NCBI GenBank assembly: GCA_016178015.1
Contig: JACOUB010000006.1
Location: 1-64,000, forward strand
Direction: 5' to 3'
Source of the DNA: Methylocystis sp.
GTDB taxonomy: Bacteria; Pseudomonadota; Alphaproteobacteria; Rhizobiales; Beijerinckiaceae
DNA: 64,000 bases
Part shown: in pieces, positions 4,770 through 44,389 of the stretch
How the letters are laid out: every line of letters begins with the position of its first letter
Position numbering within the stretch: position 1 is the first letter of the stretch
Notes under the pieces: model-generated
The model's database searches: none
What the model was told of the DNA's origin: nothing
Seen by the model: the letters and a program-made list of their open reading frames with translations, nothing else
Position numbers and translations under genes: made by a program

Positions 4770-5009
4770 TCAAGGCGCCTTCTTCAGGCTCGAAATGGCT
4801 CTTGCAGGATCGAAACCGAGCGCTTCCGCCAGCTCCAGGAATTCCACAACGTCAACACGACGCTCGCCGCTTTCGAGCCGGGCGACGAAGGACTGGTACT
4901 CGCCAAGCCGAGCGGCAAGATCAGCCTGCGTCATGCCCGCCGCCTCTCTCTTTTCGATGAGTAGATCGATCAAGGCCCTGTGGCGTTCCGATCCAAGCGT
5001 CTTTGCCAA
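4770..5009 (-). CDS. XRE-family helix-turn-helix regulator (79 aa)
   Basis: A single Cro/C1-type helix-turn-helix fills the protein: EKREAAGMTQADLAARLGEYQSFVARLESG... with the helix-turn-helix at about residues 25-46 and the ERRVDVVEFLELAEALGFDP helix after it. Proteins of this shape are common small repressors in rhizobial accessory DNA. Upstream (5044-5081) lie three related half-sites forming two inverted repeats, fitting autoregulation. It is convergent with the DUF736 gene. It could be an ICE controller or an orphan antitoxin-like regulator; no toxin partner is apparent next to it. Confidence 0.85.
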   Translation of the reverse strand: MAKTLGSERHRALIDLLIEKREAAGMTQADLAARLGEYQSFVARLESGERRVDVVEFLELAEALGFDPARAISSLKKAP

Positions 5010-5717: not shown

Positions 5718-6026
5718 CTATACAAGCGCCCACGCATCCACGGGGAAATCGGCATTGCAGCTTTCATGTTTTGCGGCGCGCCGGTTTTGCGCTCTTGCGG
5801 ATCGGCGGCTTTGCGCTTTTCCGGTTATTTGCCGATGGAGACTTCGTCTCGGGCTTCCTGCGCTGCGCCTTTTCGGCAGCGCCTCGTCGTCGGGCGTCAC
5901 CAGCGCGACATGTTCGACGCCGAGCGCCTGTGACAGCTCGAAGAGGGTAACGACCATTGGATTGCGGCGGCCACGCTCGAGATCGCTCGGATATTGCTGC
6001 GTGAAGTCCGAGCGCTCGGCGCGGGA
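5718..6026 (-). pseudogene. Truncated XRE-family regulator (QseC-like position)
   Basis: Read on the minus strand from 6026, the frame encodes ERSDFTQQYPSDLERGRRNP followed by VVTLFELSQALGVEHVALVTP, i.e. the second half of a Cro/C1 helix-turn-helix. A TAA at 6027-6029 precedes it in frame, and the first half of the domain (the usual ...GLSQEELA) is absent. The only ATG (5957) lies inside the domain. It is divergent from a short DUF2285 gene, the arrangement of qseC-qseM in the Mesorhizobium symbiosis ICE, so it may be the remains of that controller. The C-terminal tail is Arg-rich and possibly frameshifted. Confidence 0.6.
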
Positions 6027-6080
6027 TTATCGGATACAATAGAAGCCGGAGCGGCGCGTTATTCGAGGAGCACGACATTC

Positions 6081-6350
6081 GTGAGCCCTTCTGACCCCGC
6101 GCCGGTCGCGGACGTTGCGCCCTCCGAGCCGCATCTGACCGATTACGATCACAAGCATGTCGCGATCTATTTGCGGCTGCTCGACGCGGCCGAGGAAGGC
6201 GCCGCGTGGGAAGAAGCCGCTCGCATCGTGCTCGGCATCGACGCGATTCGCGAGCCCGAACGCGCGAGACGCGCGCACGACACGCATCTTGCGCGCGCGC
6301 GCTGGCTTTCCTCCCATGGCTATCGTGATTTTCTTCGGGGCAGCCCCTGA
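6081..6350 (+). CDS. Short DUF2285 protein (QseM-like antiactivator candidate)
   Basis: Essentially the whole 89-aa protein is a DUF2285 domain: LTDYDHKHVAIYLRLLDAA, then AAWEEAARIVLGIDAIREPE, then RARRAHDTHLARARWLSSHG and YRDFLRG at the end. The GTG at 6081 is chosen because AGGAG lies about 11 bp upstream and the longer frame adds no conserved sequence. In the Mesorhizobium ICE a free-standing DUF2285 protein, QseM, blocks the activators TraR and FseA; DUF2285 is a winged helix-turn-helix variant. With an FseA-like gene 2.5 kb downstream, the same role is a reasonable inference. Confidence 0.72.
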   Translation: MSPSDPAPVADVAPSEPHLTDYDHKHVAIYLRLLDAAEEGAAWEEAARIVLGIDAIREPERARRAHDTHLARARWLSSHGYRDFLRGSP

Positions 6351-8412: not shown

Positions 8413-8831
8413 ACGCTGCCGTCCCGGGGCGAGGGGCAGGGGGCGGTGCGGCGGCGTTCAGCAGAGGGCAAACCGGCCTCCGTCCTCCCGGCTGACTGAC
8501 TTTCCGATATGGGTCAGAACGGGTAAAGCTCAGAGCGAGCATATGTTTTCCGAGTTGCTCCGAGAGCAGACATTCGACGGCGGCCCTCGCGGCCAACTAC
8601 CTCGCCTTCTTCCAACTTGTGTCCACCCGGCTATGGCTGCGCGTTAATGAGACCGCGCCCTAGTGCAATCGTGGTTCCCCATAAATCCGCAAATCCGGCT
8701 TTGTGGCGATTCTGAGAAGCCGGAACCCGTTTTTCGGCATGACCCGAGCCGAATCATGCATTTGCCAATGCCCAATATCGACAAGATTCCTTGCAACCAT
8801 TGCGAGCAACTGCATTACTGCGAGAAAATCC
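8413..8831. other. Gap upstream of the FseA-like gene
   Basis: About 420 bp with no supported gene. Frames here (for example one ending at 8923) overlap the start of the FseA-like gene in another phase and are not protein-like. The region presumably carries the promoter at which a quorum-sensing activator would act; I cannot identify a tra-box. Confidence 0.4.
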
Positions 8832-9582
8832 ATGTCGATCAAAGATTGGCGCTCGCCGAGCGCGTACGATTATGCGCGAGATTTGAATTCGGTCGGCGTC
8901 GCCTGGGAATTCCTACGCCGTAATCCCGATTATCGCGCCGACTATGCGAACGCTCGAATTCGAGCCGCTCTCGAGACCGGCGCTGCCGGTCCCGAGCGGC
9001 GCTGGGGGTTGCGATTTCGCGGTCGATCCCACGCTCCGCGCAATCGACGCAGACGTCTTCTGGCTTCCCGATTTCCGGACGAGCGTTGTCATTCTCACGG
9101 CGACGCCAACTGAGACCGCCGCGCTGACATTCGCTCCGTCCGATTGGCCTAACCTGCGCGCCCGCCGCGCCGAGCATGACGGCGAACATCTGATCCTGAG
9201 AGCGGGCCACGAGGAACATCAGCTCTGGCTGCCCGACCCACCGCAGGAGGGAAGTTCACTCGCGGCTATCATTCCACTCGACGATGCGACGCCCCAACGC
9301 GCCGACGCCGCCATGTGTTTTTGGCGTCATACAACGGGCCAGCAACCGCGCGCCGGTCCTCTCGGACACCGGCGCAGATTGCACATCGGCAACGCACTAC
9401 GGGCGCTCGATGGCCATTTGAGCGGCGCGACCTATCGCGCCATCGCCGAGAGCCTGTTCAGCCCGGCTCGGATCGCCGCCGAGCCATGGAAGACCGCTTC
9501 GCTTCGCGACGCCACGATCCGGCTCGTCCGCAATGGCCTCGCTCTCATGCGCGGCGGATATCGCAGTTTCTTGCGCCGGTAG
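8832..9582 (+). CDS. fseA: FseA-like transfer/excision activator, split by a +1 frameshift
   Basis: Two overlapping frames make one protein. Frame one (8832-9113) begins MSIKDWRSPSAYDYARDL and holds a DUF6499-type block with WEFLRRNPDYRADY and RRWGLRF. Frame two (open from before 8944 to 9582) carries AVDPTLRAIDADVFWLPDF and a C-terminal DUF2285 domain ending LMRGGYRSFLRR. Conservation passes from frame one to frame two near TTT CGC at 9015-9020; skipping one base (C9018) gives a 249-aa fusion. In the Mesorhizobium ICE the equivalent genes msi172-msi171 are fused by programmed +1 frameshifting into FseA, which activates rdfS. Here too an RdfS-like gene follows. Confidence 0.78.
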
Positions 9583-9688
9583 TTCGCGGCTGAACTCGGC
9601 GACATATTCATCAGGGGGTGGCGAATTCGGCGCCCTCAACTTCACCATCCCCCCTCCCGGCATTTCTCCGCCACCGTGATCGATGACA

Positions 9689-9707
9689 GCCGCCGACATT
9701 CGGCGGC
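9689..9707. promoter_or_regulatory. Inverted repeat before the rdfS-like gene
   Basis: Perfect 8-bp arms GCCGCCGA (9689-9696) and TCGGCGGC (9700-9707) around CAT, 28 bp before the start codon of the rdfS-like gene. It could be a binding site for the activator or regulator of the excision operon, or an RNA hairpin in its leader. Confidence 0.4.
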
Positions 9708-9734
9708 CCTCCTCAGCATTACGGAGGCGCCTTC

Positions 9735-10019
9735 ATGTCCGCCGCAGCCACCCAGCTTCCGCCACGTAACCTGCGCACGCCCGAGGCGGCGCGCTTCTTG
9801 GGTCTTTCTGCCCGCACGCTCGAAAAGCACCGGACCTACGGCACGGGCCCACGTTATTCGAAACTCGGCGGCCGCGTCGTCTATCGACTCGAGGATTTGC
9901 AGGCATGGGTCGAACTCGGCGCCAAGGCATCGACCTCCGACCCCGGCGTCGGAAAAGTGCTGCCCGCCAAGCGTCACGCCGCCATCTCGCCGGCCTTCGC
10001 CGGCCAGCCGCGTCGCTGA
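9735..10019 (+). CDS. rdfS: RdfS-like recombination directionality factor
   Basis: The 94-aa protein contains a MerR/excisionase-type helix-turn-helix: LRTPEAARFLGLSARTLEKH (about 13-32) followed by a wing and RVVYRLEDLQAWVELG (about 47-62). An ACGGAGG ribosome site precedes the ATG. In ICEs of this type RdfS is the excisionase that turns the integrase toward excision and also promotes expression of downstream transfer genes; it lies after fseA and ahead of replication and relaxase genes, exactly the order seen here. A general AlpA-like regulator is the alternative. Confidence 0.75.
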   Translation: MSAAATQLPPRNLRTPEAARFLGLSARTLEKHRTYGTGPRYSKLGGRVVYRLEDLQAWVELGAKASTSDPGVGKVLPAKRHAAISPAFAGQPRR

Positions 10020-12041: not shown

Positions 12042-12547
12042 ACTCCAACACACCGGTTTCCAAACCGACGATCCAACGTGCTGCTGCATCCCTGACGTAT
12101 GTCGAACTGACCTTCGTTCCAAAACGCATCGAGTATTGGATCAGGTTCGGCCGCATCGCCGAAGAGAGAATCCTCGACCGCCGCCGCCGCATCGTCAGTT
12201 TTGCATCAGGCACCGTCTTCGCCTTCGTGCGCTGGGCCTCAAACGAACATGGCACGATCATTTCGCGCATCGACATCCTGCGCGCGATATCGCCGGGCGA
12301 AGCCTTCTCGACGGTGCCGTTCGTCCGTCCGGGCGGCGACATTCTGCTGCGCATCACCGGATGGGCCAAGGTCGAACGTGTGCTTCGTGCGATCGATGCG
12401 GTCGAAGCGATCGGCGTCGATCCAATCGAGGTGGCGCCCGATCATTGGCGCCACGTCCATAACCGCCTGACCGCCGGCGTGGAACCGCGACCCTATACGC
12501 TGCAACGACACAATGCCTGGTTGCGGCGGCGCAGGATAGAGCCATGA
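12038..12547 (+). CDS. DUF2840 family protein
   Basis: The 169-aa protein contains the DUF2840 pattern: LTYVELTFVPKRIEYWIRFG (about 19-38), a central Arg-rich ILDRRRRIVSFASGTVFAF, and the C-terminal VDPIEVAPDHWRHVHNRLTAG. The family occurs in ICE transfer operons of alphaproteobacteria between parA and traF, as here; function is unknown. It overlaps its neighbours on both sides by 4 bp, marking a tight operon. Confidence 0.88.
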   Translation: MNSNTPVSKPTIQRAAASLTYVELTFVPKRIEYWIRFGRIAEERILDRRRRIVSFASGTVFAFVRWASNEHGTIISRIDILRAISPGEAFSTVPFVRPGGDILLRITGWAKVERVLRAIDAVEAIGVDPIEVAPDHWRHVHNRLTAGVEPRPYTLQRHNAWLRRRRIEP

Positions 12548-13059
12548 CCGGCCGCGCCGCCACGCTCGCTGCCATGTGCCTCGGCATCTCCGCCGCCGCG
12601 CTTCCGCAGCAAAACCACGGGGTGCGGTGGTTGATCTGGAACGTCAGCGCCAGCGCACCGGTTGGTCTCTACTCCGTGGCGCCGGCGGGCAAACTCCATG
12701 TCACGGATTTGATGGTCATCCGACCGCCAGACCCGATCGCGAGTTTCCTTGCCGATCGCGGTTATCTGCCGCGCGGCGTGCCGCTTCTGAAGCGCATTCT
12801 GACGCTCCCTGGACAGACTGTCTGCCGGCAGAACTTCCTCATCACCGTCGACGGCGTCGAGGTGGGCACGGCGCGCGAACACGATCATCTCGGTCGCGCG
12901 CTGCCCGTCTGGCAGGGCTGCCGGATTATAGCCGAGGATGCAGTCTTCCTCATGAATTGGCAGTCGGAGGACTCGCTCGACGGACGCTATTTCGGGCCGC
13001 TTCCCAGCGCTTCGATCATCGGTCGCGTCATTCCCCTCTGGACCTTCGAGGACAATTGA
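12544..13059 (+). CDS. traF: TraF, S26-type conjugation signal peptidase
   Basis: The 171-aa protein has an N-terminal membrane segment, then SASAPVGLY (about 35-43) with the catalytic Ser context of S26 peptidases, and GVPLLKRILTLPGQTVC (about 79-95) with the general-base Lys, followed by the C-terminal DGRYFGPLP motif. TraF proteins process the TrbC pilin by cutting and cyclising it in the periplasm; trbC is in this window at 32873. It overlaps DUF2840 by 4 bp and is followed 2 bp later by the lytic transglycosylase. Confidence 0.9.
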   Translation: MTGRAATLAAMCLGISAAALPQQNHGVRWLIWNVSASAPVGLYSVAPAGKLHVTDLMVIRPPDPIASFLADRGYLPRGVPLLKRILTLPGQTVCRQNFLITVDGVEVGTAREHDHLGRALPVWQGCRIIAEDAVFLMNWQSEDSLDGRYFGPLPSASIIGRVIPLWTFEDN

Positions 13060-14038: not shown

Positions 14039-14241
14039 GTCGCAGGGCCGGCATGGAGAAAGGTCAAGAGCGACCAACCGACCGTTGGAGGGCGAGATAA
14101 AACGCGCGGCCCTGCTGCTGCGCGAAGCCTTTGCTCACGCAAGGCTTTCGCATGTGCCGGTCGGATGGGCGGCGTGCCGCAAGCATGAAAATTACTCGCA
14201 AGTTCAGTTGCATTTCCGGCACCGCGCGAGAGGAACGCCTC

Positions 14242-15996
14242 ATGAGCAATGGCGACGATGATCTGCGAATCCGTCCTGGCCGGGTCCGCCACGATCGTCA
14301 GGGAAAGGCACCCAAGAGCTTTACCGCGCAGGTCCTGAAGGCGGCGCACAAGGCGGGACATGTCGGCGCACGCGGGCGAGTTGGACAGGGCCGGCGCTCG
14401 ACCTTCGGCCGGGGGCGCGGCCGAGCAATCGCCGCGGAGCGGAGCCTGCTTTCGACCGCCCGGCGCGTTGTCGTCAAGGCGCGCGTCGTCCGCCACAAAG
14501 GCCGCGCCTTTCGATCGGCGCCGCTCGCGACGCACCTTGTCTATCTCAAGCGCGAAGGGGTGACACGCGACGGAGACGGCGCCCGCATGTTCGATGCGCG
14601 CTCTGACAACATTGACGCGGGCGCGTTCGCCGCGCGCTGCGAGGCGGACCGGCATCATTTCCGCTTCATCGTCAGCCCGGAAGACGCCAGCGAAATGGAA
14701 GACCTTCGCGCCTTCACGCGCGACCTCATGCGCGAGGCCGAGCGCGACCTCGGGACGACGCTCGAATGGATCGGCGTAGACCATTGGAACACCGACAATC
14801 CTCACATCCATGTGCTTATTCGCGGTAGGGCCGACGATGGCGGCGACCTCGTCATTTCGCGAGATTATATTTCGAACGGGCTTCGCTCCCGCGCCGAACA
14901 TCTCGTCAGCCTCGAGCTCGGTCCGAAGCCCGAACACCGCATCCGCGACGATCTCGCCCGCGAGGTCGAAGCCGAACGCTGGACGCGGCTCGATAGGGCG
15001 ATCGGCGCCCATGCAGACGAAACAGGGTTCGTCGATCTGCGGCCCATCGGCGCGAGCGAAGCCGATCCACATATCCGCCGGCTCATGATCGGCCGTCTGC
15101 AGAAGCTGGAGCGCATGGGCCTCGCCACTCCCGCCGGTCCGGCGCAATGGGGCGTAGGGCTCGAAGCGGAAAGCACGTTGCGCGATCTCGGCATGCGCGG
15201 GGACATCATCAAGACCATGCATCGCGCCCTCACCGAGGCGCGGCTGGAGAGAAGTCTCGCCGACTTCACGATCCACTTCGAGACCGAAGCCCCGCGGGTC
15301 ATCGGCCGGTTTGTCGCACGCGGTCTCCACGACGAATTGACCGGCGCGGCTTACGCGATCGTCGATGGCGCCGACGGCCGCGCCCATCATCTGCGCTTTC
15401 CCGACATCGAGGCGACGAGCGACGCAGCGGCCGGCGGCATCGTCGAATTGCGCCACTACATCGATGCGAAGGGAGCGGAACGCATCGGCCTCGCCGTCCG
15501 ATCGGACTTGTCGCTCGATGAGCAGATCAAAGCGGAAGGGGCGACCTGGCTGGACCGGCGACTCGTCGAGCGCGTGGAGACGCCGCTCGCCCATGGCGGT
15601 TTCGGACAGGAGGTGCGCGAGGCGCTGATTGCCCGGACCGAACATCTCGCCGTCGGGGGACTCGTTCGCCGGCAAGGCCAGCGCGTCATCTTCGCCCGCG
15701 ATCTTCTCGCGACTCTGAGGCGCCGCGAACTCGACGCCATCGGCGCGAAGCTCGCGGGAGAAACGGGGCGGCCTTACCGCCCCACCGCCGAAGGCGAGGC
15801 CGTTGCCGGTCTCTACCGTCAGCGATTGAGCCTCGCCTCCGGGCGTTTCGCCATGATCGACGACGGCCTCGGCTTCCAGCTCGTCCCCTGGAAGCCCTCG
15901 CTGGACATGCAGATCGGCAAATACGTCGCCGGCGTCATGTCGCCGGGCGGCGGGGTGGAGTGGAGCTTCGGGCGGAGGCAGGGGATCGGGATATAG
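14242..15996 (+). CDS. rlxS: RlxS-like relaxase (VirD2-type, DUF3363)
   Basis: From the ATG at 14242, which has AGAGGA upstream, the product is 584 aa. After a basic N-terminus, the relaxase core shows THLVYLKREGV (about 96-106), HHFRFIVSPED (about 136-146) and the metal-binding motif IGVDHWNTDNPHIHVLIRG (about 177-195) with its histidine triad. The C-terminal half fits DUF3363. It nicks oriT and leads the strand into the recipient. An upstream in-frame ATG at 14131 lacks a good ribosome site. It ends the rdfS-to-relaxase operon and is convergent with the beta-lactamase-like gene. Confidence 0.88.
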   Translation: MSNGDDDLRIRPGRVRHDRQGKAPKSFTAQVLKAAHKAGHVGARGRVGQGRRSTFGRGRGRAIAAERSLLSTARRVVVKARVVRHKGRAFRSAPLATHLVYLKREGVTRDGDGARMFDARSDNIDAGAFAARCEADRHHFRFIVSPEDASEMEDLRAFTRDLMREAERDLGTTLEWIGVDHWNTDNPHIHVLIRGRADDGGDLVISRDYISNGLRSRAEHLVSLELGPKPEHRIRDDLAREVEAERWTRLDRAIGAHADETGFVDLRPIGASEADPHIRRLMIGRLQKLERMGLATPAGPAQWGVGLEAESTLRDLGMRGDIIKTMHRALTEARLERSLADFTIHFETEAPRVIGRFVARGLHDELTGAAYAIVDGADGRAHHLRFPDIEATSDAAAGGIVELRHYIDAKGAERIGLAVRSDLSLDEQIKAEGATWLDRRLVERVETPLAHGGFGQEVREALIARTEHLAVGGLVRRQGQRVIFARDLLATLRRRELDAIGAKLAGETGRPYRPTAEGEAVAGLYRQRLSLASGRFAMIDDGLGFQLVPWKPSLDMQIGKYVAGVMSPGGGVEWSFGRRQGIGI

Positions 15997-16035: not shown

Positions 16036-17397
16036 TCAGGAACGCTCATCGATCCTTGTCGCGGGCGTGTCCCGGCCGTTGTGATGCAGGATCAATCCGG
16101 TCGCCTGGCCGCTGCCGTCGGTTTGAAACGTGATCTGGGCATCCACCACCTTTAGAAAATAATCCTTTTCGCTCTCCGCAAAAATTTCGAGTTTCGGCTC
16201 CCCTGTGGGTTGCACAAATAAGCGATTGTCCTCTCGCGTCACCGTCAAATTGATATTCGGACCCCACTGGTAGCGGCCGACGTATCCGTCGAACAGCTTA
16301 GGATCAATTGCAATCTCCTTGCGTTCCTGCGGCGGCGCGAGGGGAAGTCTTGGATCGAGGAGGTGTCGTCCGATGTCGTGGACGCTGACCGAGGTTGCCG
16401 TGTTGGACAGAGCAACGACGCCAACCCGCTTTTTCGGCACGAATCCGACGAACGAGCGATACCCACCCGTACCACCACCATGCCACACAACGTCCGCGCC
16501 GTCTTTGTCGATCATCCAACCGAGGGCGATTTCCGAGTAGGGAACACTGCTCGGCCGCCGGACATTCAGCATGGCTTGGAACGCGCGAGCAAGCGGCGAT
16601 TCCGTAAAGCCAAGCGCAGCCTCCACGAAAGTCTGAAGGTCGTGTGCAGTAGATCGTAGGGCGCCCGCTCCGGCCAGGGCCGGCAAATCCCAGTTCGGAA
16701 CGGCTTCCGACGTTGCGCTGTGTCCCACCGCCAGCCTGTTCTGGAGTTCGGGGGACAATGTGATGCCCGTGCTGCTCATGCCAAGCGGGCCAGCGACGCG
16801 GGTTTGAACCAGGGTTTCGTAATCGACGCCGATACGACGCGAGAGGGCGTGGCCCAGGAGGCCGCCGCCGAGGTTCGAGTATTCGAATTGCACGCCGATG
16901 TCCCGCGTCAGCTCATAGTGCGAGAGGAACTGGTAGAGTTGCTCGACCGAATAGTCGGCATACGGATTGTTAGGATCCTTCGGAGCAAAGTTGCTCGGCA
17001 TCCGCGGCAATCCCGAAGTGTGGGTCGCCAAATCCTCCAACGTAATCGAGCGACCGTTCCTTTCCGGCACGCTGAGCTCTTTTGGCAGGTATTTCGCGAC
17101 TGGATCAATCAGCGCGACCTCGCCCCGTTGCGCCATGTCGGCCAGCAGCAGCGCCGTAAAAACCTTGGTGACCGAGCCGATCTCGAACACCGTCTCGCCA
17201 TTCAGGGGACGCGGGTCGCCATGATCGAGATGGCCATGAGCAATAACGCGACGGCCCTGTGGCTCGACAACCCCGACCACGATCCCGACGCTTTGCCGCC
17301 GCCCGTCGATCCGCTCGGTGAGGATCTTGCGAATTTCGGAGTCGGGCAGGACCGGGGATTCTGACTGCGATTCAGCAACCACAGCGTTGACGGTCAT
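16036..17397 (-). CDS. Serine beta-lactamase-like hydrolase (class C/CubicO type)
   Basis: The 453-aa protein has the S-x-x-K motif in FEIGSVTKVFTALLLADMAQ (about 90-109), the YSN motif in VQFEYSNLGGGLLGHAL, and WHGGGTGGYRS as the third active-site element, the set found in class C beta-lactamases, esterases and D-aminopeptidases. A C-terminal lipocalin-like extension (GYVGRYQWGPNINLTV...) is typical of the CubicO group. The ATG at 17397 has GAGGAA upstream; further-upstream ATGs lead only an unlikely Cys/Arg-rich stretch. It stands alone on the minus strand between relaxase and traG, a cargo position. Substrate cannot be told; drug resistance should not be assumed. Confidence 0.85.
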   Translation of the reverse strand: MTVNAVVAESQSESPVLPDSEIRKILTERIDGRRQSVGIVVGVVEPQGRRVIAHGHLDHGDPRPLNGETVFEIGSVTKVFTALLLADMAQRGEVALIDPVAKYLPKELSVPERNGRSITLEDLATHTSGLPRMPSNFAPKDPNNPYADYSVEQLYQFLSHYELTRDIGVQFEYSNLGGGLLGHALSRRIGVDYETLVQTRVAGPLGMSSTGITLSPELQNRLAVGHSATSEAVPNWDLPALAGAGALRSTAHDLQTFVEAALGFTESPLARAFQAMLNVRRPSSVPYSEIALGWMIDKDGADVVWHGGGTGGYRSFVGFVPKKRVGVVALSNTATSVSVHDIGRHLLDPRLPLAPPQERKEIAIDPKLFDGYVGRYQWGPNINLTVTREDNRLFVQPTGEPKLEIFAESEKDYFLKVVDAQITFQTDGSGQATGLILHHNGRDTPATRIDERS

Positions 17398-17627
17398 CAA
17401 GAATGTTCCTCGGGCAAAGACGTTGCGTGTCGCGAAACAAACGAGACTAACGGATGGTCTGTTATGGAGCCAGCGCGCCTCATTTCCAAGCATTCTGCAA
17501 TCGACCAGCATTCTGTAATCGACCACTATTGGCGCATCCCGGTCTTTGCACGCCATAGTGCGATAGCCTTCGACCAGAAATAAGGACCCCTTGCAACCAT
17601 CTCGCAAACACACTGAAGGTGGCGCCC

Positions 17628-19625
17628 ATGCCTGCCACCCGCATCCTCTGGGGTCAGATCGTCATCGTCCTTTCGATCGTCCTCGTCGCGATCTGGGCCG
17701 CGACGCAATGGACCGCCTGGCGATTGGGGTTCCAGCCGCAGCTCGGCCCACCCTGGTTCGCCTTGCCGCCCAATTTTCCCATCTATCCGCCGCCGGCCTT
17801 TTTCTGGTGGTGGTACCATTTCGACGCCTATGCGCCGCGCGTGTTCATGGAAGGCGCCGGCATCGCCTCTTCCGGGGCCTTTCTCTCGATCGCGGTCGCG
17901 ATCGGCCTCTCTGTCCAAAGGGCGCGCGAGGCGCAATTCGTGACCACCTACGGCTCAGCGCGCTGGGCGAGCGAAACCGAGATCAGAAAAGCCGGCCTGC
18001 TCGATCCCGACGGCGTTGTGCTCGGCATGTTCGGTGAAAACTATCTGCGGCACGACGGTCCCGAACATGTGCTCTGCTTCGCACCGACAAGATCCGGCAA
18101 GGGCGTCGGCCTCGTCGTGCCGACCTTGCTCACCTGGCCCGGTTCCGCCATCGTCCACGACATCAAGGGCGAGAACTGGTCCTTGACCGCCGGCTGGCGC
18201 GCGCGCTTCGGCCGCGTTCTGCTGTTCGATCCGACCAACCCTTTGAGCGCCGCCTATAATCCGCTGCTCGAAGTCAGGCGCGGCGACGCCGAGGTGCGCG
18301 ACGTGCAAAATGTCGCCGATATTCTGGTCGATCCAGAAGGCGCGCTCGAGCGCCGCAACCATTGGGAAAAGACCAGCCATTCGCTGCTCGTCGGCGCAAT
18401 CCTGCATGTGCTCTATGCGGAAGAAGACAAGACGCTGGCCGGCGTCGCCAATTTCCTCTCCGATCCCAAACGTCCGATCGAGACGACGCTCCGCGTCATG
18501 CTGACGATGATGCATTTGGACGAAAGACCGCATCCCGTCGTGGCGTCCGCCGCGCGCGAGCTCTTGAACAAGAGCGAGAACGAGCGCTCCGGCGTGCTCT
18601 CCACCGCCATGTCCTTTCTCGGCCTCTATCGCGATCCCGTCGTCGCGAAAGTCACGGCGCGGTGCGATTGGCGGATCGACGATCTCGTCTCTAGCGAAAG
18701 TCCGACCACCCTCTATCTCGTCGTGCCGCCCTCCGACATCAGCCGCACCAAGCCGCTCGTGCGCCTCATCCTCAATCAGATCGGGCGGCGGCTGACGGAA
18801 GAACTCGAGACGAAAGCCAAGAGGCGTCGCTTGCTCTTGATGCTCGACGAATTCCCGGCGCTGGGACGCCTCGACTTCTTCGAATCGGCGCTGGCCTTCA
18901 TGGCCGGCTACGGCCTGAAGAGCTTTCTCATCGCCCAGTCGCTCAACCAGATCGAAAAGGCCTATGGCGCGAACAACGCCATTCTAGACAATTGCCATGT
19001 GCGCGTCGCCTTTGCCACCAATGACGAGAGGACCGCAAAGCGTGTCTCCGACGCGCTCGGCACCGCGACCGAAATGCGCGCGATGAAGAATTACGCAGGG
19101 CATCGTCTTTCGCCCTGGCTCGGCCATCTCATGGTCTCGCGCCAGGAGACCGCGCGCCCGCTGCTCACGCCGGGCGAGATCATGCAATTGCCACAGGGCG
19201 AAGAACTCGTTCTCGTCTCCGGCTCTCCGCCGATCCGCGCCCGCAAGGCGCGCTACTATGAAGACCGGCGCTTGAAGGCGCGCATTCTGCCGCCGCCGAA
19301 ACCGATGCGTGACTTCGAACACGAAGACGCCCATGGCGACGACAGTTGGGCTTCGTTGCCGGCACCGGATCTGGCCCGCTCTTTCGAACCGCTCGCCGGC
19401 GCCTCCCTCAACGAGACGGACGCCGAGAGCGGCGGCATCCGCCGCGAACCCATGCTTCCCGAGCACGAGGCGATCGCGCCGGAAGCTCCCGAACCCCGAA
19501 GTGAATTCGCAGTCTTCGACGACGAGCCGGACGATGAAGCGATCAAAGCAAAAGCGCTCGGCAATCGCATGCGCTCCATGGCGCGCCAGGCCGCGCTCGA
19601 CCGCGATGACGATTTACAAATGTGA
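17628..19625 (+). CDS. traG: TraG/VirD4 coupling protein
   Basis: The 665-aa protein begins with two membrane helices (about 5-25 and 75-95), then APTRSGKGVGLVVPTLL (about 151-167) with the Walker A loop, LLLMLDEFPALGRLDFF (about 401-417) with Walker B, and SLNQIEKAYG. These are the TraG/VirD4 ATPase landmarks. It links the relaxase-DNA complex to the Trb channel. The ATG at 17628 is preferred over GTG 17619 because GAAGG lies 9-13 bp upstream. The C-terminal 120 residues are acidic. It is followed 9 bp later by the CopG gene, as is usual in this ICE family. Confidence 0.95.
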   Translation: MPATRILWGQIVIVLSIVLVAIWAATQWTAWRLGFQPQLGPPWFALPPNFPIYPPPAFFWWWYHFDAYAPRVFMEGAGIASSGAFLSIAVAIGLSVQRAREAQFVTTYGSARWASETEIRKAGLLDPDGVVLGMFGENYLRHDGPEHVLCFAPTRSGKGVGLVVPTLLTWPGSAIVHDIKGENWSLTAGWRARFGRVLLFDPTNPLSAAYNPLLEVRRGDAEVRDVQNVADILVDPEGALERRNHWEKTSHSLLVGAILHVLYAEEDKTLAGVANFLSDPKRPIETTLRVMLTMMHLDERPHPVVASAARELLNKSENERSGVLSTAMSFLGLYRDPVVAKVTARCDWRIDDLVSSESPTTLYLVVPPSDISRTKPLVRLILNQIGRRLTEELETKAKRRRLLLMLDEFPALGRLDFFESALAFMAGYGLKSFLIAQSLNQIEKAYGANNAILDNCHVRVAFATNDERTAKRVSDALGTATEMRAMKNYAGHRLSPWLGHLMVSRQETARPLLTPGEIMQLPQGEELVLVSGSPPIRARKARYYEDRRLKARILPPPKPMRDFEHEDAHGDDSWASLPAPDLARSFEPLAGASLNETDAESGGIRREPMLPEHEAIAPEAPEPRSEFAVFDDEPDDEAIKAKALGNRMRSMARQAALDRDDDLQM

Positions 19626-28233: not shown

Positions 28234-29163
28234 ATGGCTACGCTCCCGAAAATCACGCTAGAGCAATGGCGGACGCTCGTGTCCGTGGTGGAAGCGGGCG
28301 GCTACGCGCAGGCCGCGGACCAGCTCCACAAGAGCCAGTCTACGCTGACCTATGCGGTGCAAAAGCTGGAACGCCTGCTGGACATCAAAGTGTTCGAAAT
28401 CCACGGCCGCAAGGCTGTGCTGACATCCGCTGGCCAGGTGCTCTACCGGCGTGGGAAGACGCTGATCCAGGAGGCTGTGCGCCTGGAGCGCGCGGCGGCC
28501 AGTCTGGCGGCCGGCTGGGAACCGGAACTGCGGCTGGCGGTGGACAGTATCTTTCCCACCTGGCTGCTGCTGGAGTGCTTCGCGCGCTTCGCCGATGAAC
28601 GCCCGGAAACGCGCATCGAACTGATCGAATCGGTACTCGGAGGCACGGATGAATCCTTGCTCGAGGGTCGTGTTGAGCTAGCCATTGGCTCGTCGGCGCC
28701 GCCGGGATTTGTCGGCGACCCGATCATGCACGTGCGCTTCATTGCCGCAGCCCATCCGGACCACCCGCTGCACCGACTCGGCCGGCCGCTCACGCTGGAA
28801 GATCTACGTCTGCATCGGCACCTGGTAATCCGCGACACGGGCCGGCAGCGCGCACGCCCGCCGGGCTGGCTCAATGAGCAACGCTGGACCGTGAGCCACA
28901 AGGCCACGTCCATCCGCGCCGCGTGCATGGGTCTTGGCTATGCGTGGTACGCCGAGGACATCATTCGCAGGGAACTCGACACCGGCGAACTCAAACCGCT
29001 GCCGCTCCGCGAAGGGGCGGAGCGCTGGGCCGCTCTTTATCTGATCTTTGCGGACCGCGACGCCGCCGGCCCCGCTGCGTTGCGGATCGCGGAAATCATC
29101 CGCGCCGGCATTGCGCAGCATTGTCCACAGGCAGGCGCGGCGGACGCCTCACCGGCCTCGTGA
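28234..29163 (+). CDS. LysR-family transcriptional regulator
   Basis: The 309-aa protein shows the LysR winged helix at the N-terminus (TLEQWRTLVSVVEAGGYAQA, then KSQSTLTYAVQKLERLLDIK, about 8-55) and a type-2 periplasmic-binding-like effector domain (ELRLAVDSIFPTWLLLECFA..., from about 95). It is divergent from doxX-pirin, and the 109-bp AT-rich gap holds several ATCGAT/ATTGAT-like motifs, the usual place for LysR control. The inducer is unknown; it might also affect mtoX, which starts 115 bp downstream on the same strand. Confidence 0.92.
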   Translation: MATLPKITLEQWRTLVSVVEAGGYAQAADQLHKSQSTLTYAVQKLERLLDIKVFEIHGRKAVLTSAGQVLYRRGKTLIQEAVRLERAAASLAAGWEPELRLAVDSIFPTWLLLECFARFADERPETRIELIESVLGGTDESLLEGRVELAIGSSAPPGFVGDPIMHVRFIAAAHPDHPLHRLGRPLTLEDLRLHRHLVIRDTGRQRARPPGWLNEQRWTVSHKATSIRAACMGLGYAWYAEDIIRRELDTGELKPLPLREGAERWAALYLIFADRDAAGPAALRIAEIIRAGIAQHCPQAGAADASPAS

Positions 29164-29278
29164 GCCGGTTGACGCGGCCGTGCGAACACATAACCTATCG
29201 ACAGGAGACGGGCGTCACCGAAATTTTGCTCGACATCACGACGCGATCTCACCAACGCTGAAGCATGGAGCGAATGAC

Positions 29279-30571
29279 ATGTCGTATTCGCGCAGAAAAG
29301 CTTTCTTCTTGACTGTTTTCGCCATGATCGCTCCGCTCGGCTTCGGCGGCGCGGCCTCGGCCGACGAGACGTGCCTTTCGCCTTACACCGCAGCGCTGAT
29401 CAAAGGCCAGGAGAGTTATCTTCACGTATGGTCGCTCGGCGAAAAAAGCCTGGGCGACGAGAGCGACAAGCTCGTCACCGTCGATGTCGACCCTTCCTCG
29501 GCCTCCTATGGGAAAGTCGTCGACAAACTGTCGGTCGGCGGACGCGGCGAGGCGCATCACATGGGCTTTACCGACGACCGCAAGTATCTTTGGGCCGGGG
29601 GCTTGGACGACAGCAGAATTTTTATCTTCGATGTCGGGAGCGACCCATCGAGACCCAAGCTCGTGCGGACCATTTCCGATTTCGCTCAGAAGACCGGCTT
29701 CGTCGGCCCGCACACCTTCTATGCTTTGCCCGGCCGCATGTTGATCGGCGCCTTGTCCAATTCGAAGACGCGTGACGGCGTCACCGGACTCGCCGTCTAC
29801 AACAATGACGGCGAATTCCTTTCGGCGCATCCGATTCCGCTCGCCGACGGAGGCGACGGCTATGGCTATGACGTCGCGATCAATCCGCAGAAGAATGCCC
29901 TTCTCACGTCGAGCTTCACCGGCTGGAACAATTACATGAGGGATTTCGGCCAGCTGGTCCAGGATGCGGAAGCGATGAAGCGCTTCGGCAATACGATGGT
30001 GCTGTGGAACCTGAAGGCGTTGCAGCCCGATACGATCTTCAACGTGCCTGGAGCGCCGCTCGAGATCCGCTGGTCGCTCAACGAAGGCGACGACTGGGCG
30101 ATCACGGCGACTGCTCTCACGTCTAAACTTTGGCTGATCAACCGCGATGCGCAGGGGCGATGGCAAGGAAAGGAGGTCGGCGTCATCGGCGATCCCGCCA
30201 AGACGCCGCTGCCGGTCGACATCTCGATTTCGGCCGACGCCAAGACCCTTTGGGTCAACACCTTCATGGACGGCAAGACCCGGCTCTTCGACATTTCCAA
30301 CCCCGAGAAGCCGGTGCAGGTTTACGAAAAGGTCACCGGGCGTCAGGTCAATATGATCTCTCAGAGCTGGGACGGGCGACGCGTCTACATCACCTCTTCG
30401 CTTCTTAGCAACTGGGACAAGAAGGGCGCCGACAACGAGCAGGTCTTGCGCGGCTATGAATGGGACGGCAAGGAACTCAAGCAGAAATTCGAAGTCGATT
30501 TCTTCAAGGAGCAGCTCGGCCGCCCCCATCATATGAAATTCTCCGCGCGCTCGTTTGCCGAACGCCGATGA
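29279..30571 (+). CDS. mtoX: Methanethiol oxidase / selenium-binding protein (SBP56 family)
   Basis: The 430-aa product has a signal peptide (about 1-28, ending ASADET) and the SBP56 beta-propeller signatures: DETCLSPYTAALIKGQESYL (about 29-48), RGEAHHMGFTDDRKYLWAGG, GFVGPHTFYALPGRML, GYGYDVAINPQKN and the closing FKEQLGRPHHMKFS. In Hyphomicrobium the periplasmic family member MtoX is a copper-dependent methanethiol oxidase that yields formaldehyde, hydrogen sulfide and hydrogen peroxide, and mtoX is accompanied by an SCO-type copper chaperone gene. The same pairing occurs here (next gene, 22 bp on), which supports the enzyme assignment. Confidence 0.85.
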   Translation: MSYSRRKAFFLTVFAMIAPLGFGGAASADETCLSPYTAALIKGQESYLHVWSLGEKSLGDESDKLVTVDVDPSSASYGKVVDKLSVGGRGEAHHMGFTDDRKYLWAGGLDDSRIFIFDVGSDPSRPKLVRTISDFAQKTGFVGPHTFYALPGRMLIGALSNSKTRDGVTGLAVYNNDGEFLSAHPIPLADGGDGYGYDVAINPQKNALLTSSFTGWNNYMRDFGQLVQDAEAMKRFGNTMVLWNLKALQPDTIFNVPGAPLEIRWSLNEGDDWAITATALTSKLWLINRDAQGRWQGKEVGVIGDPAKTPLPVDISISADAKTLWVNTFMDGKTRLFDISNPEKPVQVYEKVTGRQVNMISQSWDGRRVYITSSLLSNWDKKGADNEQVLRGYEWDGKELKQKFEVDFFKEQLGRPHHMKFSARSFAERR

Positions 30572-30593
30572 GCGGAGCCACGGTAGCGCTGCG

Positions 30594-31253
30594 ATGGTGT
30601 TTTTTCGATGCTTGCTCGCGACGGCCATATCCGTCGCAGCCCCTGTTTTCTCGTTCGCCGCAGAGGGCGGGCTGCCGCTGCCGGCTCCGGGAACGTATAC
30701 GCTGAACCGAATTCAGCGCGCGCCTTTCGCGATCGTCCGAGAAGGAACGGACGCGCCGCGCCCGCTCGCCGATTACACGACGGGAGCGGTGACGCTCATG
30801 ACCTTTTTCTACGGCCATTGCGCAAACCCACGAGGCTGCCCGCTCGCATGGCGGGTTTTCGAGTCGGTGCGTGTGCAGATCAGGAACGACGCCAGTCTGC
30901 AACGGCGCGTGCGGTTGGTTTTCTTCAGCTTCGACCCGGCGCATGACACGCCAAATATCTTGAGCGAATTCGCGCGCAGCTATCAATCCGACAACGCGAT
31001 TGCGCCTTGGCGCTTCATCACGGCCTGGCCTGAGTTCACGCTTGCGCCGATCCTACGCAGTTTCGGTCAGGACATCGCCGTGGAGCCCAATTCGGCGACC
31101 GAAGAGCCGACCGTGATCAACCATCTCCTCAAGGTGTTTCTGATCGATCGCGACGGCTGGATTCGGGAAATTTATACGTTCGCCTATCTCGATCCGCCGG
31201 TCTTGCTGAATGACATCCGGACGCTGTTGGAGGAAACAAACGCCGGAGAGTAA
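30594..31253 (+). CDS. SCO1/SenC-like copper chaperone
   Basis: From the ATG at 30594 the 219-aa protein starts with a signal sequence (MVFFRCLLATAISVAAPVFS) and has a thioredoxin-like fold: VTLMTFFYGHCANPRGCPLA (about 67-86), VFFSFDPAHDTP, and INHLLKVFLIDRDG with the likely third copper ligand His. The two cysteines are separated by five residues (CANPRGC), not three as in classic SCO. It follows mtoX by 22 bp and would load copper into it in the periplasm. A TTG start at 30555 is possible but would overlap mtoX. Confidence 0.82.
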   Translation: MVFFRCLLATAISVAAPVFSFAAEGGLPLPAPGTYTLNRIQRAPFAIVREGTDAPRPLADYTTGAVTLMTFFYGHCANPRGCPLAWRVFESVRVQIRNDASLQRRVRLVFFSFDPAHDTPNILSEFARSYQSDNAIAPWRFITAWPEFTLAPILRSFGQDIAVEPNSATEEPTVINHLLKVFLIDRDGWIREIYTFAYLDPPVLLNDIRTLLEETNAGE

Positions 31254-31853: not shown

Positions 31854-32876
31854 ATGAACCCCGATCCGGATCGTGTGCGAAGCGATCCCAAAGAAAACGG
31901 GGCGCAGATGGGGCAGCGACCAATTACTAGCGAAGCGCACGCGCGCGGCGCGCGCATGTTGCGCACGGCGCTTGGGCCGGCGATCGCCGAATGGCTCGAT
32001 GATCCTTCCGTCATCGAAGTGATGCTCAATCCCGACGGCCGACTGTGGATCGACCGTCTGAAGGAAGGCTTGCAAGACACGGGGTCTTCGCTATCGGCCG
32101 CCGATGGCGAGCGGATCGTGCGCCTCGTCGCTCATCATGTCGGCGCCGAGGTCCATGCTGGGAGTCCCCGCGTCTCGGCCGAATTGCCGGAGACGGGGGA
32201 GCGCTTCGAGGGATTGATTCCGCCGGTCGTCGCGGCGCCGGCCTTCGCCATTCGCAAACCCGCTGTCGCCGTCTTCACGCTCGACGATTACGCCGCCGCA
32301 GGCGTCATGACGCGGACGCAAGCCGATATCTTGCGCATCGCCGTAGCGGAACGCGCCAATATTCTCGTCGCCGGCGGCACGTCGAGCGGCAAAACCACGC
32401 TCGTCAACGCGCTCCTCGCCGAGGTCGCCAAGACCAACGAACGCGTGGTCCTGATCGAGGACACGCGCGAACTGCAATGCGCCGCGCCCAATCTCGTCGC
32501 CTTGCGCACCAAGGACGGCGTCGCGTCGCTATCGGACCTCGTGCGCTCATCGCTGCGTCTGCGTCCGGACCGCATTCCGATCGGCGAGGTGCGCGGGCCA
32601 GAAGCTCTCGATCTGTTGAAGGCCTGGGGCACCGGCCATCCGGGCGGCGTCGGCACCATCCACGCCGGCTCGGCGCTCGGCGCGCTACGCCGCCTCGAGC
32701 AGTTGATCCAGGAAGCCGTCGTCACCGTGCCGCGCGCGCTCATCGCCGAAACCATCGATATCGTCGCCGTCCTGTCAGGGCGCGGCGAGCAGCGTCAGCT
32801 CGCGGAACTCGCGCAAGTCCACGGCCTCGACGCCAACAACGATTACCTCCTCAACCTCATCGGAGTTTTGCCATGA
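31854..32876 (+). CDS. trbB: TrbB, conjugal transfer ATPase (VirB11-like)
   Basis: The product (340 aa from 31854; 322 aa from a second ATG at 31908) has [20 protein letters not shown] at its conserved beginning, Walker [29 protein letters not shown] (Asp box), [15 protein letters not shown] (Walker B) and [14 protein letters not shown] (His box). It powers pilus assembly and substrate passage in the type IV secretion channel. It overlaps trbC by ATGA and heads the trb operon. Neither start has a strong ribosome site. Confidence 0.95.
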
Positions 32877-33202
32877 GCCTTCGGTTCTTTCTTCCGCGCC
32901 ACGCTTCCTTGCGCGCGCTTTCTAGCCTCGCGGTCGCGATGGCGAGCGCGCCGGCGTTCGCCGCCGGCTCGAGCATGCCTTGGGAACAGCCGCTGCAGCA
33001 GATTCTGCAATCGATCGAGGGGCCGGTCGCCAAGATCATCGCGGTGATCATCATCATCGTCACGGGACTGTCGCTCGCTTTCGGCGACACGTCGGGCGGC
33101 TTCCGCCGCCTGATCCAGATCGTCTTCGGTCTCTCCATCGCCTTCGCCGCCTCGAGCTTCTTTTTGTCCTTCTTCTCCTTCGGCGGCGGAGCGCTGGTCT
33201 GA
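32873..33202 (+). CDS. trbC: TrbC pilin (VirB2-like)
   Basis: The 109-aa prepilin has a signal peptide ending APAFA (about residue 30), then the mature region SSMPWEQPLQQILQSIEGPV and two membrane helices (KIIAVIIIIVTGLSLAFG and a second near 78-100). It is the substrate of TraF, encoded at 12544. It overlaps trbB by 4 bp and trbD by 1 bp. Confidence 0.93.
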   Translation: MSLRFFLPRHASLRALSSLAVAMASAPAFAAGSSMPWEQPLQQILQSIEGPVAKIIAVIIIIVTGLSLAFGDTSGGFRRLIQIVFGLSIAFAASSFFLSFFSFGGGALV

Positions 33203-33471
33203 TGGCCGATCCGCAATTGATCGCTGGCTTCGAGGCCCCGGTTCATCGCGCCTTGACCGAGCCAATCCTGCTCGCTGGCGCGCCACGCGCGGTGGCGATC
33301 CTCAATGGAACGCTCGCCGCGGCGCTCGGCCTCGGCTTGCGCCTCTGGCTCCCCGGACTTCTTCTCTGGCTCGTAGGCCATGCGGCGGCAGTCTGGGCGG
33401 CCAAGCGCGACGCGCAATTTGTCGACGTCGTGCGCGCGCATCTGCGCATCCCCAGCTTCCTCGGCGTGTGA
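33202..33471 (+). CDS. trbD: TrbD (VirB3-like)
   Basis: The 89-aa protein shows the VirB3/TrbD pattern: a short N-terminal region with GFEAPVHRALTEPILLAGAPR, one or two adjacent membrane helices (AALGLGLRLWLPGLLLWLVG) and a short cytoplasmic tail ending with RAHLRIPSFLGV. It is an inner-membrane component that works with the VirB4 ATPase. Its start overlaps the trbC stop (TGATG) and trbE follows after 7 bp. Confidence 0.92.
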   Translation: MADPQLIAGFEAPVHRALTEPILLAGAPRAVAILNGTLAAALGLGLRLWLPGLLLWLVGHAAAVWAAKRDAQFVDVVRAHLRIPSFLGV

Positions 33472-33478
33472 GGCTTTC

Positions 33479-35965: not shown

Positions 35966-36705
35966 ATGTTTCTCGCTTTCGCGCCATCTGTCTCGCTGGC
36001 GTCGTCGCGATGGCGCCCACTCTCGCGCCCACGCCGGCGTTCGCGCAGTGGGTCGTGTTCGATCCGTCAAATTATGCGCAAAATCTCCTCACCGCCGCCC
36101 GGTCGCTGCAGCAGATCAGTAACCAGATCACCATGCTGCAAAACCAAGCGCAAATGTTGATCAATCAGGCGCGCAATCTCGAAAGCTTGCCGTTTTCCTC
36201 GCTGCAGTCGATCGAACAATCGTTCGAGCGGACGCAGCAGCTCCTCAAGCAGGCGCAGCGCATCGCTTACGACGTCAACGCGATCAACACGACTTTTCAG
36301 CGCCTCTATCCGCAAGGCTACACGGGCTCGACGTCGTCGCAACAACTGATCTTCGACGCGCAGGATCGCTGGAGGAACGCGCTCGCCGGGCACCAGGACG
36401 CGCTCAAGACCCAAGCCGGCGTCGTCGGCAATCTCGATGCGACGCGCTCCTCGATCGACGCGCTCGTCTCATCGAGCCAAGGGGCGACGGGCGCGCTGCA
36501 AGCGATGCAGGCCGGCAATCAGCTGATGGGCTTGCAATTGAGGCAACTCGCCGACCTCACCGCGCTCCTCGCCGCACAGGGGCGCGCCTCAAGTCTCGAT
36601 GGCGCGCGCGTTGCTGCCAATCAGGATCAGGCGCGCGAGCAGCTCGGCCGCTTCTTGACGAGCAATCAACCTTACCAGCCCCAAAACGTTCAGATGTTCC
36701 ACTGA
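35962..36705 (+). CDS. trbJ: TrbJ (VirB5-like)
   Basis: The 247-aa product has a signal peptide ending TPAFAQW (about residue 30) and a helical, Gln-rich body: NYAQNLLTAARSLQQISNQI, then MLQNQAQMLINQARNLESLP, features of TrbJ/VirB5 minor pilus proteins. It starts inside the trbE stop (ATGA). The next gene is an 18-bp step away. Confidence 0.92.
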   Translation: MNVSRFRAICLAGVVAMAPTLAPTPAFAQWVVFDPSNYAQNLLTAARSLQQISNQITMLQNQAQMLINQARNLESLPFSSLQSIEQSFERTQQLLKQAQRIAYDVNAINTTFQRLYPQGYTGSTSSQQLIFDAQDRWRNALAGHQDALKTQAGVVGNLDATRSSIDALVSSSQGATGALQAMQAGNQLMGLQLRQLADLTALLAAQGRASSLDGARVAANQDQAREQLGRFLTSNQPYQPQNVQMFH

Positions 36706-36722
36706 CGAGGAGACGCGTCATC

Positions 36723-36884
36723 ATGAACGATCGACTCTCTCGAATGCCGCCCTTTGCGATCTTCGTAGGATCCGTCCTGATCATTCTGACGATCAGCATC
36801 GCCTGGGACAATGAAGCGCGGCCGGCGGCGCCAAAGCCCGAATACGAGAGGTCTCCCTTCTTCCTTCCGCTCGGAGCCTATTGA
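36723..36884 (+). CDS. Small membrane protein at the trbK position (53 aa)
   Basis: ATG at 36723, with GAGGAGA about 12 bp upstream, opens a 53-codon frame: a basic start (MNDRLSRMPP), one membrane helix (FAIFVGSVLIILTISIAW) and a Pro-rich tail ending LPLGAY. It lies between trbJ and trbL, the place of the TrbK entry-exclusion protein, and its stop abuts trbL (TGAACATG). TrbK identity is by position and topology only; it lacks a lipoprotein Cys. Confidence 0.7.
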   Translation: MNDRLSRMPPFAIFVGSVLIILTISIAWDNEARPAAPKPEYERSPFFLPLGAY

Positions 36885-36886
36885 AC

Positions 36887-38056
36887 ATGGGCGGCGCCGG
36901 CGTCATCGATCGCTTCCTCGAGACCTTCACCCGCTACATCGATTCAGGCTTCGGCCTCGTCAATGGCGACGTGGCCTTCCTGTCCTCGACGCTGATCGCA
37001 ATCGACATCACGCTCGCCGGCCTGTTCTGGGCGCTCGCCGCGGAAGAGGACGTGATCGCCCGGCTCGTCAAGAAGACGCTCTATGTTGGATTCTTCGCTT
37101 TCCTCATCGGCAATTTCAACACGCTCGCCCGCGTCGTGTTCGAGAGTTTCGCCGGGCTCGGACTGAAAGCCGGCGGATCAGCGTTCTCGCAAAGTCAGTT
37201 GCTGCAACCAGGGCGTCTCGCTCAAGTCGGCATCGACGCCGGCAAACCGATCCTCACCGCAGTCGGTCAGCTCATGGGCTATGTCTCCTTCTTCGAGAAT
37301 TTCGTCCAGATTTTCGTCCTGCTTTTCGCGTGGCTCGTCGTCGTCGTCGCTTTCTTCATTCTCGCCGTGCAGCTCTTCGTCACTTTGATCGAGTTCAAGC
37401 TGACGACGCTCGCCGGATTCGTGCTCGTTCCCTTCGGCCTCTTCAACAAGACCGCGTTCCTTGCGGAAAAAGTGCTGGGCAATATCGTCGCCTCCGGCGT
37501 CAAGGTGCTCGTGCTCGCGGTCATCGTCGGCATTGGCTCGACGCTGTTTTCGCAATTCACGTTAAGCGCTCCCAATCCGCCGACGATCGATGACGCGCTC
37601 TCTCTCGTTCTCGCATCAGTGGCGCTCTTGGGATTGAGCATTTTCGGACCCGGGATCGCCGCTGGCCTCGGCTCAGGCGCGCCGTAGCTCGGCGCCGGCG
37701 CGGCCGTTGGAACCGCGCTCACTGTTGGCGGCCTTGGCGTCGCCGGCGCGCTCAGCGCGCGAACGGGCGTCGCCGCTGTGGCCGGAACCGCGCGGGGAAC
37801 GACGCAGGCCGTTCGCGGCGGCCTGTCTCGCCTTGGATTTTCGGTCGCATCGCGAGCCGAATCCGCCGCCGTCACGGAAGGCAGCGCTGTCTGGTCCAGC
37901 GGGGCTGGATCCGTCAACGCGCCGCCGGAATGGGCGCGCGCCCTGCGCCGCAATCAAGCGATCAGCCATGGCGTAACCACCGCCGCCCATTCCGTGCGCT
38001 CCGGCGATCATGGCGGAGGATCGACCAGCGTCCCGCTTCCGAAGGAGAAATCATGA
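36887..38056 (+). pseudogene. trbL: trbL (VirB6-like) interrupted by an amber codon
   Basis: The first 266 codons encode a normal TrbL with MGGAGVIDRFLETFTRYIDS and about six membrane helices (to 37684). A TAG at 37685-37687 then stops the frame in ...GSGAP-stop-LGAGAAVG; the same frame stays open for another 122 codons to 38056 and encodes the Ala/Gly-rich TrbL tail ending PLPKEKS. A CAG (Gln) to TAG change explains it. TrbL is the polytopic channel protein. The truncated form keeps the membrane part, so function may be impaired rather than absent; the 3' frame still overlaps trbF by ATGA. Confidence 0.85.
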
Positions 38057-44379: not shown

Positions 44380-44389
44380 CGAACCCTCG

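Follow-up and report, generated by a model that had tools for sequence, protein, structure and literature searches.

The window, i.e. the whole stretch of 64,000 nucleotides analysed, contains at 8832–9582 a pair of overlapping open reading frames with a +1 change of frame at UUU_C, directly after the codons for WG and one further pair of residues. The following features surround it.

4770–5009, minus strand: gene of an XRE-type HTH protein, divergent, in a position comparable to qseC (PF01381, E 1.3e-11)
5994–6350, plus strand: qseM-like gene, a lone DUF2285 without DUF6499 (PF10074, E 4.3e-6; 63% identity over 87 aa to the neighbour of M. parvus fseA)
8832–9017, plus strand: 5' half of fseA (msi172-like), DUF6499/PF20109, containing AWEFLRRN (PF20109, E 4e-21)
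9003–9018, plus strand: putative shift cassette TGG GGG TTG CGA TTT C with an SD-like UGGGGGU, CGA before the slip codon and UUU_C (codon-choice tests, 16-mer matches, anti-SD pairing)
9015–9018, plus strand: predicted +1 slip site UUU_C, at which UUU 9015–9017 would re-pair as UUC 9016–9018
9018–9113, plus strand: 31-codon tail of the unshifted frame-0 product, without conservation (its length varies among homologues)
9019–9582, plus strand: 3' half of fseA (msi171-like), middle domain and DUF2285/PF10074 DNA-binding domain (PF10074, E 1.2e-28; wobble positions follow the +1 frame)
9614–9654, plus strand: candidate FseA box GGGGGT-GGCGAA-15-TTCACC-ATCCCCCC, hexamers at 9620–9625 and 9641–9646, conserved upstream of rdfS-like genes
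9735–10019, plus strand: rdfS-like gene of an excisionase/recombination directionality factor, HTH_17 (PF12728, E 3.6e-9)

The frame-0 ORF extends from the ATG at 8832 to the stop codon at 9111–9113 and encodes 93 residues. The match to DUF6499 covers residues 5–63, and the motif AWEFLRRN, by which this domain is recognised (PMC10359603, excerpt), is present letter for letter. The ORF in the +1 frame (8944–9582, beginning with the ATG at 8944) matches DUF2285 and additionally PF22792 (E 2.4e-6). If TTTC at 9015–9018 is taken as one step, 8832–9017 in frame 0 and 9019–9582 in the +1 frame are joined to a single protein of 249 residues with three domains in order; in this translation TTTC is read in frame just once. 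The joined product would be one FseA-type activator, with a weak sequence match to RovC (6xz5, E 0.0011). The assignment to FseA made in an earlier, sequence-only reading is supported, and its coordinates for the two frames and the junction are correct.

The change of frame is shared by most homologues. From 152 collected loci, 145 domain pairs and finally 141 distinct genes were obtained, which are distinct by DNA and not independent by descent. Twelve of them are encoded in a single frame and 129 in two frames, 128 of the latter with a +1 offset and one (L070) with a second half that is split further. UUU followed by C or U is found at the junction of 127 of the 129, a pattern not due to chance. 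For 119 genes the junction was resolved automatically; UUU is present in every one, with C as the next base in 114 and U in 5. This set is limited to genes with a profile match extending to the Phe column, and genes with other residues there drop out. Inspection of the remaining ten two-frame homologues revealed UUU_C/U in eight, whereas L009 has ATT_C and L044 has TGT_C. These two sites (L009, 2060–2040 on the minus strand; L044, about 1683) are natural variants or belong to decaying copies. In L055 one additional codon precedes the UUU.

Both halves were compared at 35 loci, including duplicates (the window appears as both L001 and L007). At 33 of these, the frame changes by +1 at the same point, with a single base skipped after a WGLRF-like sequence, in agreement with the direction proposed before. 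The other two, L012 and L029, stay in one frame. They keep WGLRF with TTT (CGA TTT CCG in L029), which could allow natural switching between the shifted and the fused form to be followed. Since 12 of the 141 distinct homologues are single-frame, the shift is not needed for the function of the family.

The closest relative, from a Methylocystis MAG (L003), has the same junction and is 93% identical in the best segment; for the 5' half of fseA the identity to a Methylocystis MAG is 96.8% over 62 residues. In L003, frame 0 ends two codons past the UUU, with TGA as the third codon after it. Among the 119 homologues the frame-0 tail is between 2 and 211 codons long within the limits of the fetched stretches, and the tail is therefore unlikely to have a conserved function. 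Conservation of frame one up to 9113, which would have refuted the sequence-only reading, is accordingly not observed, and the change of frame lies on the slippery codon itself.

Substitutions between the window and its relatives switch their periodicity at the junction. Before 9018, the frame-0 codon positions 1, 2 and 3 carry 1, 0 and 5 substitutions in the comparison with L003, 13, 12 and 19 with L008, and 13, 8 and 27 with L010. After 9018, the corresponding numbers are 22, 8 and 3 (L003), 81, 44 and 35 (L008), and 94, 59 and 42 (L010). In all three comparisons, the position richest in substitutions after the junction is the wobble position of the +1 frame.

Frameshifts in genes of mobile elements often reflect decay, and a decayed gene or an indel from sequencing or assembly was considered as an alternative. 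In 127 of 129 distinct homologues, however, including the 93% identical MAG, the frame changes at the same codon, purifying selection is seen in both frames, and the tested surrounding transfer genes match their families in open frames. Because a relative has the same junction, the wobble position switches there and UUU_C/U is so widely kept, we regard neither sequencing error nor gene decay as likely and give this explanation practically no weight. The recurrence of the layout in independent genomes likewise makes the indel error that had been named as a possible objection unlikely.

Two separate proteins, one with DUF6499 that ends at 9113 and one with DUF2285 initiated at ATG 8944, would also account for the two ORFs. 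Each ORF has a start codon, that of the second being located 25 codons before the slip, and plasmid annotation gives the halves separately or the second half alone. A homologous pair in Azorhizobium is treated as genes with their own start and stop codons in a part of PMC9601964. On the other hand, 58 of the 119 homologues lack ATG, GTG and TTG in the +1 frame before the slip (the other 61 have one), and 53 of the 119 also lack ATG and GTG in the first 12 codons after it. Furthermore, the substitution pattern of the +1 frame starts at the slip and not at 8944, and all 77 representatives (see below) have UUU as slip codon, though these genes usually encode Phe by UUC. As a general account, separate initiation of the 3' half fares poorly, and for the window we consider two independent proteins highly improbable.

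The nucleotides upstream of the slip are conserved beyond the encoded residues. Codon choice was analysed in 77 cluster representatives of the 119 genes (70% protein identity, single linkage), with the usage in the same genes as background. At position -1, CGA accounts for 47 of 55 Arg codons (background 9.7%), at position -2 UUG or UUA for 45 of 70 Leu codons (11.9%) and at position -3 GGG for 56 of 72 Gly codons (14.2%); the background of the invariant UUU is 24.5%. At conserved control positions of the same genes, CGA is present in 10 of 116 cases (the two Arg of LRRN), UUR in 8 of 58 (the Leu of LRRN) and GGG in 6 of 130 (C-terminal GG(Y/S)). The bias is kept in 34 clusters at 50% identity (CGA 19/23, UUR 20/30, GGG 26/30). 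The single-frame homologues, several of them closely related, serve as a further, weak control: nine of the 12 contain the WG(L/V)(R/C) motif, and one of these nine has CGA. Thus, the 5' context UGG-GGG-UUR-CGA-UUU-C is constrained at the nucleotide level.

In line with this, the exact 16-mer of the window (TGGGGGTTGCGATTTC) was matched 15 times in a set of 99 genomes of the family, in 11 of them and always at an fseA gene, and the reversed control pattern is absent from all 99. In 91 of 112 genes, pairing of the UGGGGG stretch with an assumed anti-SD sequence is among the top 5% of all windows of the gene. The cassette is not universal. A codon other than CGA is found at position -1 in 30 of the 77 representatives (another Arg codon in eight), and Mesorhizobium sp. 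131-2-5 has TGG GGT TTG CAG TTT CGC. No RNA structure was seen 3' of the slip, neither in the window (9003–9080, z +0.50) nor in 112 homologues, from which 7 near-duplicates of the 119 were omitted (mean z -0.15; 7 of 112 below -2), and Rfam gave nothing at gathering score in 8500–9800.

Parts of this context have been remarked on before. Excerpts of PMC10359603 mention the RBS-like UGGGGG and suggest stalling. Passages of the review PMC5009743 describe UUU_Ynn as a sequence at which bacterial ribosomes readily slip by +1 where no stop codon is present, and mention a suggested influence of the encoded WG on the shift. For the same site they report that the Gly codon is conserved in its first two bases only, which differs from the predominance of GGG found here. 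Weaker E-site duplexes accompany more +1 slipping in RF2 (PMC3498833). Based on the codon bias and on this literature, a role of GGG and UUR in extending the SD pairing is plausible, as is one of CGA as a codon held weakly in the E site. A more specific proposal regards the shift site of FseA as an RNA cassette of several parts, in which CGA, read by an inosine tRNA-Arg via a weak I:A wobble, lowers the barrier to the +1 slip when in the E site. The wobble part has precedents, as I:A pairing was linked to frameshifting earlier (Ty3 and IS1222; PMC5009743, excerpt). We hold this proposal tentatively and lean slightly against it. If it is true, replacing CGA by another Arg codon, or GGG UUG by GGC CUG, should lower the output of FseA with the protein unchanged. 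The codon bias of the site thereby provides a concrete prediction on how bacterial ribosomes slip by +1 without a stop codon. This codon-level cassette may be the sole new point relative to the literature compared, which does not include Ramsay et al. 2015.

Downstream of fseA, the arms of the candidate FseA box (GGCGAA and TTCACC) are complementary in five of six positions and 15 bp apart. Published FseA-box hexamers are 15–16 bp apart, and the logo places the hexamer at 62–67 before rdfS, compared with 88 bases between the candidate box and the rdfS start here (PMC10359603, excerpt). At 61 loci fseA is located just upstream of an rdfS-like gene. A clear repeat (score of at least 13/18) is present at 38 of these, and 23 score lower. 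This score is based on the flanks and was chosen after seeing the alignment; at least 13/18 is reached in 0.3% of 3050 shuffles. A first score used a hexamer template from the window's own group, so that the 11/12 of the window is partly circular; in shuffles, 11 was reached in 0.1%, 10 in 3.1% and 9 in 22%. Several loci have perfect repeat arms 15 or 16 bp apart, and the box regions of L013 and L011 align poorly. Among 229 genomes of another class, nine had a match; these loci were scanned for boxes and left out of the shift-site counts. A second conserved stretch like CTCCGCCACCGTGAT (9666–9685 and its relatives) follows the FseA box by about 15–20 bases at many rdfS-like genes and is possibly a promoter or DNA bound by RdfS.

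The box bears on another interpretation of the slip site, namely that it is conserved as a DNA-level half-site for FseA, in autoregulation, and not as a translation signal. The box upstream of rdfS resembles the cassette in 13 of 16 positions (AGGGGGTGGCGAATTC against TGGGGGTTGCGATTTC). The window has two matches with three mismatches besides the cassette, one of them within the candidate box, and shuffles give a mean of 0.68 such matches, with 4 of 100 reaching three. Similarity between the slip and the upstream region of the same element amounts to 9.85/16, compared with 9.63 for re-paired elements (0.8% of 500 permutations reach the former value) and 8.36 for shuffled upstream regions. This own-element excess is small, however, and uncontrolled for the relatedness of the elements. 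The slip does not covary with the box. Thirteen of the 61 loci have a central GG in place of CG in their best repeat, and their slip sites have CGA in 11 cases, TGC in two and GGA in none; for clear boxes only, CGA is kept in 10 of 12 and TGC is found in 2 of 12. The half-site was rejected for lack of covariation, with the slight own-element excess tentatively put down to relatedness, and is regarded as very unlikely.

The following genes are assigned to conjugative transfer and integration.

12544–13059, plus strand: TraF-like S26 peptidase (PF10502, E 8.3e-25)
14131–15996, plus strand: RlxS-like relaxase (NF041267, E 4e-172, below its curated cut-off; PF11843)
17619–19625, plus strand: TraG-type coupling protein (PF02534, E 2e-107)
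31854–40903, plus strand: region of mating-pair genes, family matches at five ORFs
31854–32876, plus strand: TrbB-like ATPase (PF00437, E 4e-37; named from family and order)
33380–35965, plus strand: TrbE-like ATPase (PF19044, E 8e-11; named from family and order)
37930–38739, plus strand: VirB8 family (PF04335)
38739–39713, plus strand: CagX family (PF03524)
39710–40903, plus strand: TrbI (PF03743)
51226–52482, minus strand: tyrosine integrase adjoining the 3' end of guaA (PF00589, E 1.3e-22)
52800–54527: guaA (NF000848)

The rdfS-like gene is followed by repA, parA, DUF2840, the S26 peptidase, a transglycosylase, the RlxS-like relaxase and the TraG coupling protein. This order is in keeping with rdfS, traF, msi107 and rlxS, which are named together as genes turned on by FseA from PrdfS (PMC11963761, excerpt). 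The element is predicted to be mobile. Its far end was not located: no exact shared word of at least 14 bases exists between 52651–52950 and the rest of the window, and a genome-wide search gave no convincing second att copy (best other match 24 bases, E 0.185). The genome contains two pmoA-family genes, and the closest named FseA relatives of the window are from Methylocystis; on these grounds the host is assumed to be a Methylocystis-like methanotroph. The location outside a symbiosis island, as proposed in the sequence-only reading, holds.

Several further genes were observed in this region. A gene for MtoX (methanethiol oxidase) is located within the element of this methanotroph (29048–30571; NCBIfam equivalog above cut-off, E 6.6e-218) and is adjoined by an SCO1/SenC-family ORF (30555–31253; PF02630, E 2.8e-10). 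The stretch 41350–50497 contains type III restriction-modification genes, with res (PF19778, PF04851) and an N6/N4 methylase (PF01555), and a helicase ORF (47174–50497) with Helicase_C and SNF2-related domains. Between the relaxase and coupling-protein genes, an AmpH-like serine hydrolase is encoded on the minus strand (16036–17613), which is below the cut-off of each family among the best 25 of 45 matched, class C beta-lactamases included.

Taken together, 8832–9582 is very probably one fseA gene in a predicted ICE of a Methylocystis-like methanotroph, joined by a +1 slip that would gate the activation of the rdfS-like and transfer genes by FseA. The sequence itself shows the two domains, the junction and its conservation, the frame-specific selection, the box and the neighbours. 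A frameshift-gated transfer switch would thereby be extended to an ICE in a methanotroph.

In the proposed mechanism, ribosomes would start at 8832, and most of them, as in the studied relative, would keep to frame 0 and release a short DUF6499 product at 9113. Occasionally the tRNA-Phe in the P site would slip from UUU (9015–9017) to UUC (9016–9018), and translation in the +1 frame would then yield the 249-aa activator. FseA would bind the inverted repeat at 9620–9646 and turn on the rdfS-like gene at 9735 together with the downstream transfer genes. FseA would be restrained by the QseM-like protein (5994–6350). In the latter protein PF10074 was found and PF20109 was not; its true start is probably located further in, as homology begins at residue 30. 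The net charge over the DUF2285 domain is -2 in the QseM-like protein compared with +10 in FseA. The gene at 4770–5009 may have the role of qseC. By homology, the shift would act as a brake on transfer in this element. In a more speculative reading, the common unshifted DUF6499 product may soak up QseM as a decoy. We infer the slip efficiency, the DNA binding, the antiactivation and what the SD-like stretch and the CGA codon contribute.

The closest studied system is FseA of ICEMlSymR7A (msi172-msi171) from Mesorhizobium japonicum R7A. Its tRNA-Phe slip from UUU to UUC was reportedly shown by mass spectrometry by Ramsay et al. in 2015 (PNAS). Both systems have DUF6499 and DUF2285 in two ORFs with a +1 shift, the AWEFLRRN motif, WG codons before the site, an rdfS-like neighbour, a QseM-like lone DUF2285 gene and the order rdfS, traF, transglycosylase, rlxS. 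In contrast to R7A, where fseA belongs to a traI2-msi172-msi171 operon under TraR (PMC5882170, excerpt), fseA is located directly upstream of rdfS here, the host is a methanotroph and the integrase lies beside guaA. The quorum-sensing input of the R7A model (traR/traI driving fseA) is not seen on the 73.7-kb contig C33, on which neither LuxI (PF00765) nor LuxR (PF03472) has a match, the far end of the element being possibly out of view; the only matches to both families in the genome are on contig C55.

Frameshifted FseA outside symbiosis islands is already known, and the mechanism here is that of FseA. Genes of this type that have the conserved +1 site are known from gamma-, beta- and alpha-proteobacteria, and about 61% of 4709 FseA homologues use or need it (PMC10359603, excerpt). 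On plasmid pMpar-1 of Methylocystis parvus (NZ_CP092969.1), the cassette letters TGG GGG TTG CGA TTT CGC are identical to those of the window, at 59.6% protein identity of FseA. The gene order is also the same (DUF736, QseM-like, fseA, HTH, RepA, DUF2840, S26, transglycosylase), but the QseM-like gene is about 170 bases upstream of fseA on pMpar-1 and about 2.5 kb in the window, with two other ORFs between. The annotation of pMpar-1 lists no gene for the 5' half of fseA, and gene tables can thus miss half of fseA.

The +1 frameshift of RF2 (prfB) likewise combines an internal SD-like stretch with a downstream slip of the P-site tRNA. The SD spacing is shorter in prfB, the SD-like stretch of fseA being one codon further away. 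Unlike prfB, which slips at CUU_U with UGA next (PMC5009743, excerpt), the site described here contains no stop codon. PA-X of influenza A (UCC_UUU_CGU; PMC3498833) is translated by eukaryotic ribosomes without an SD and has UCC rather than CGA in the E site, but it shares with fseA the UUU_C slip, CGN in the A site and a non-random E-site codon.
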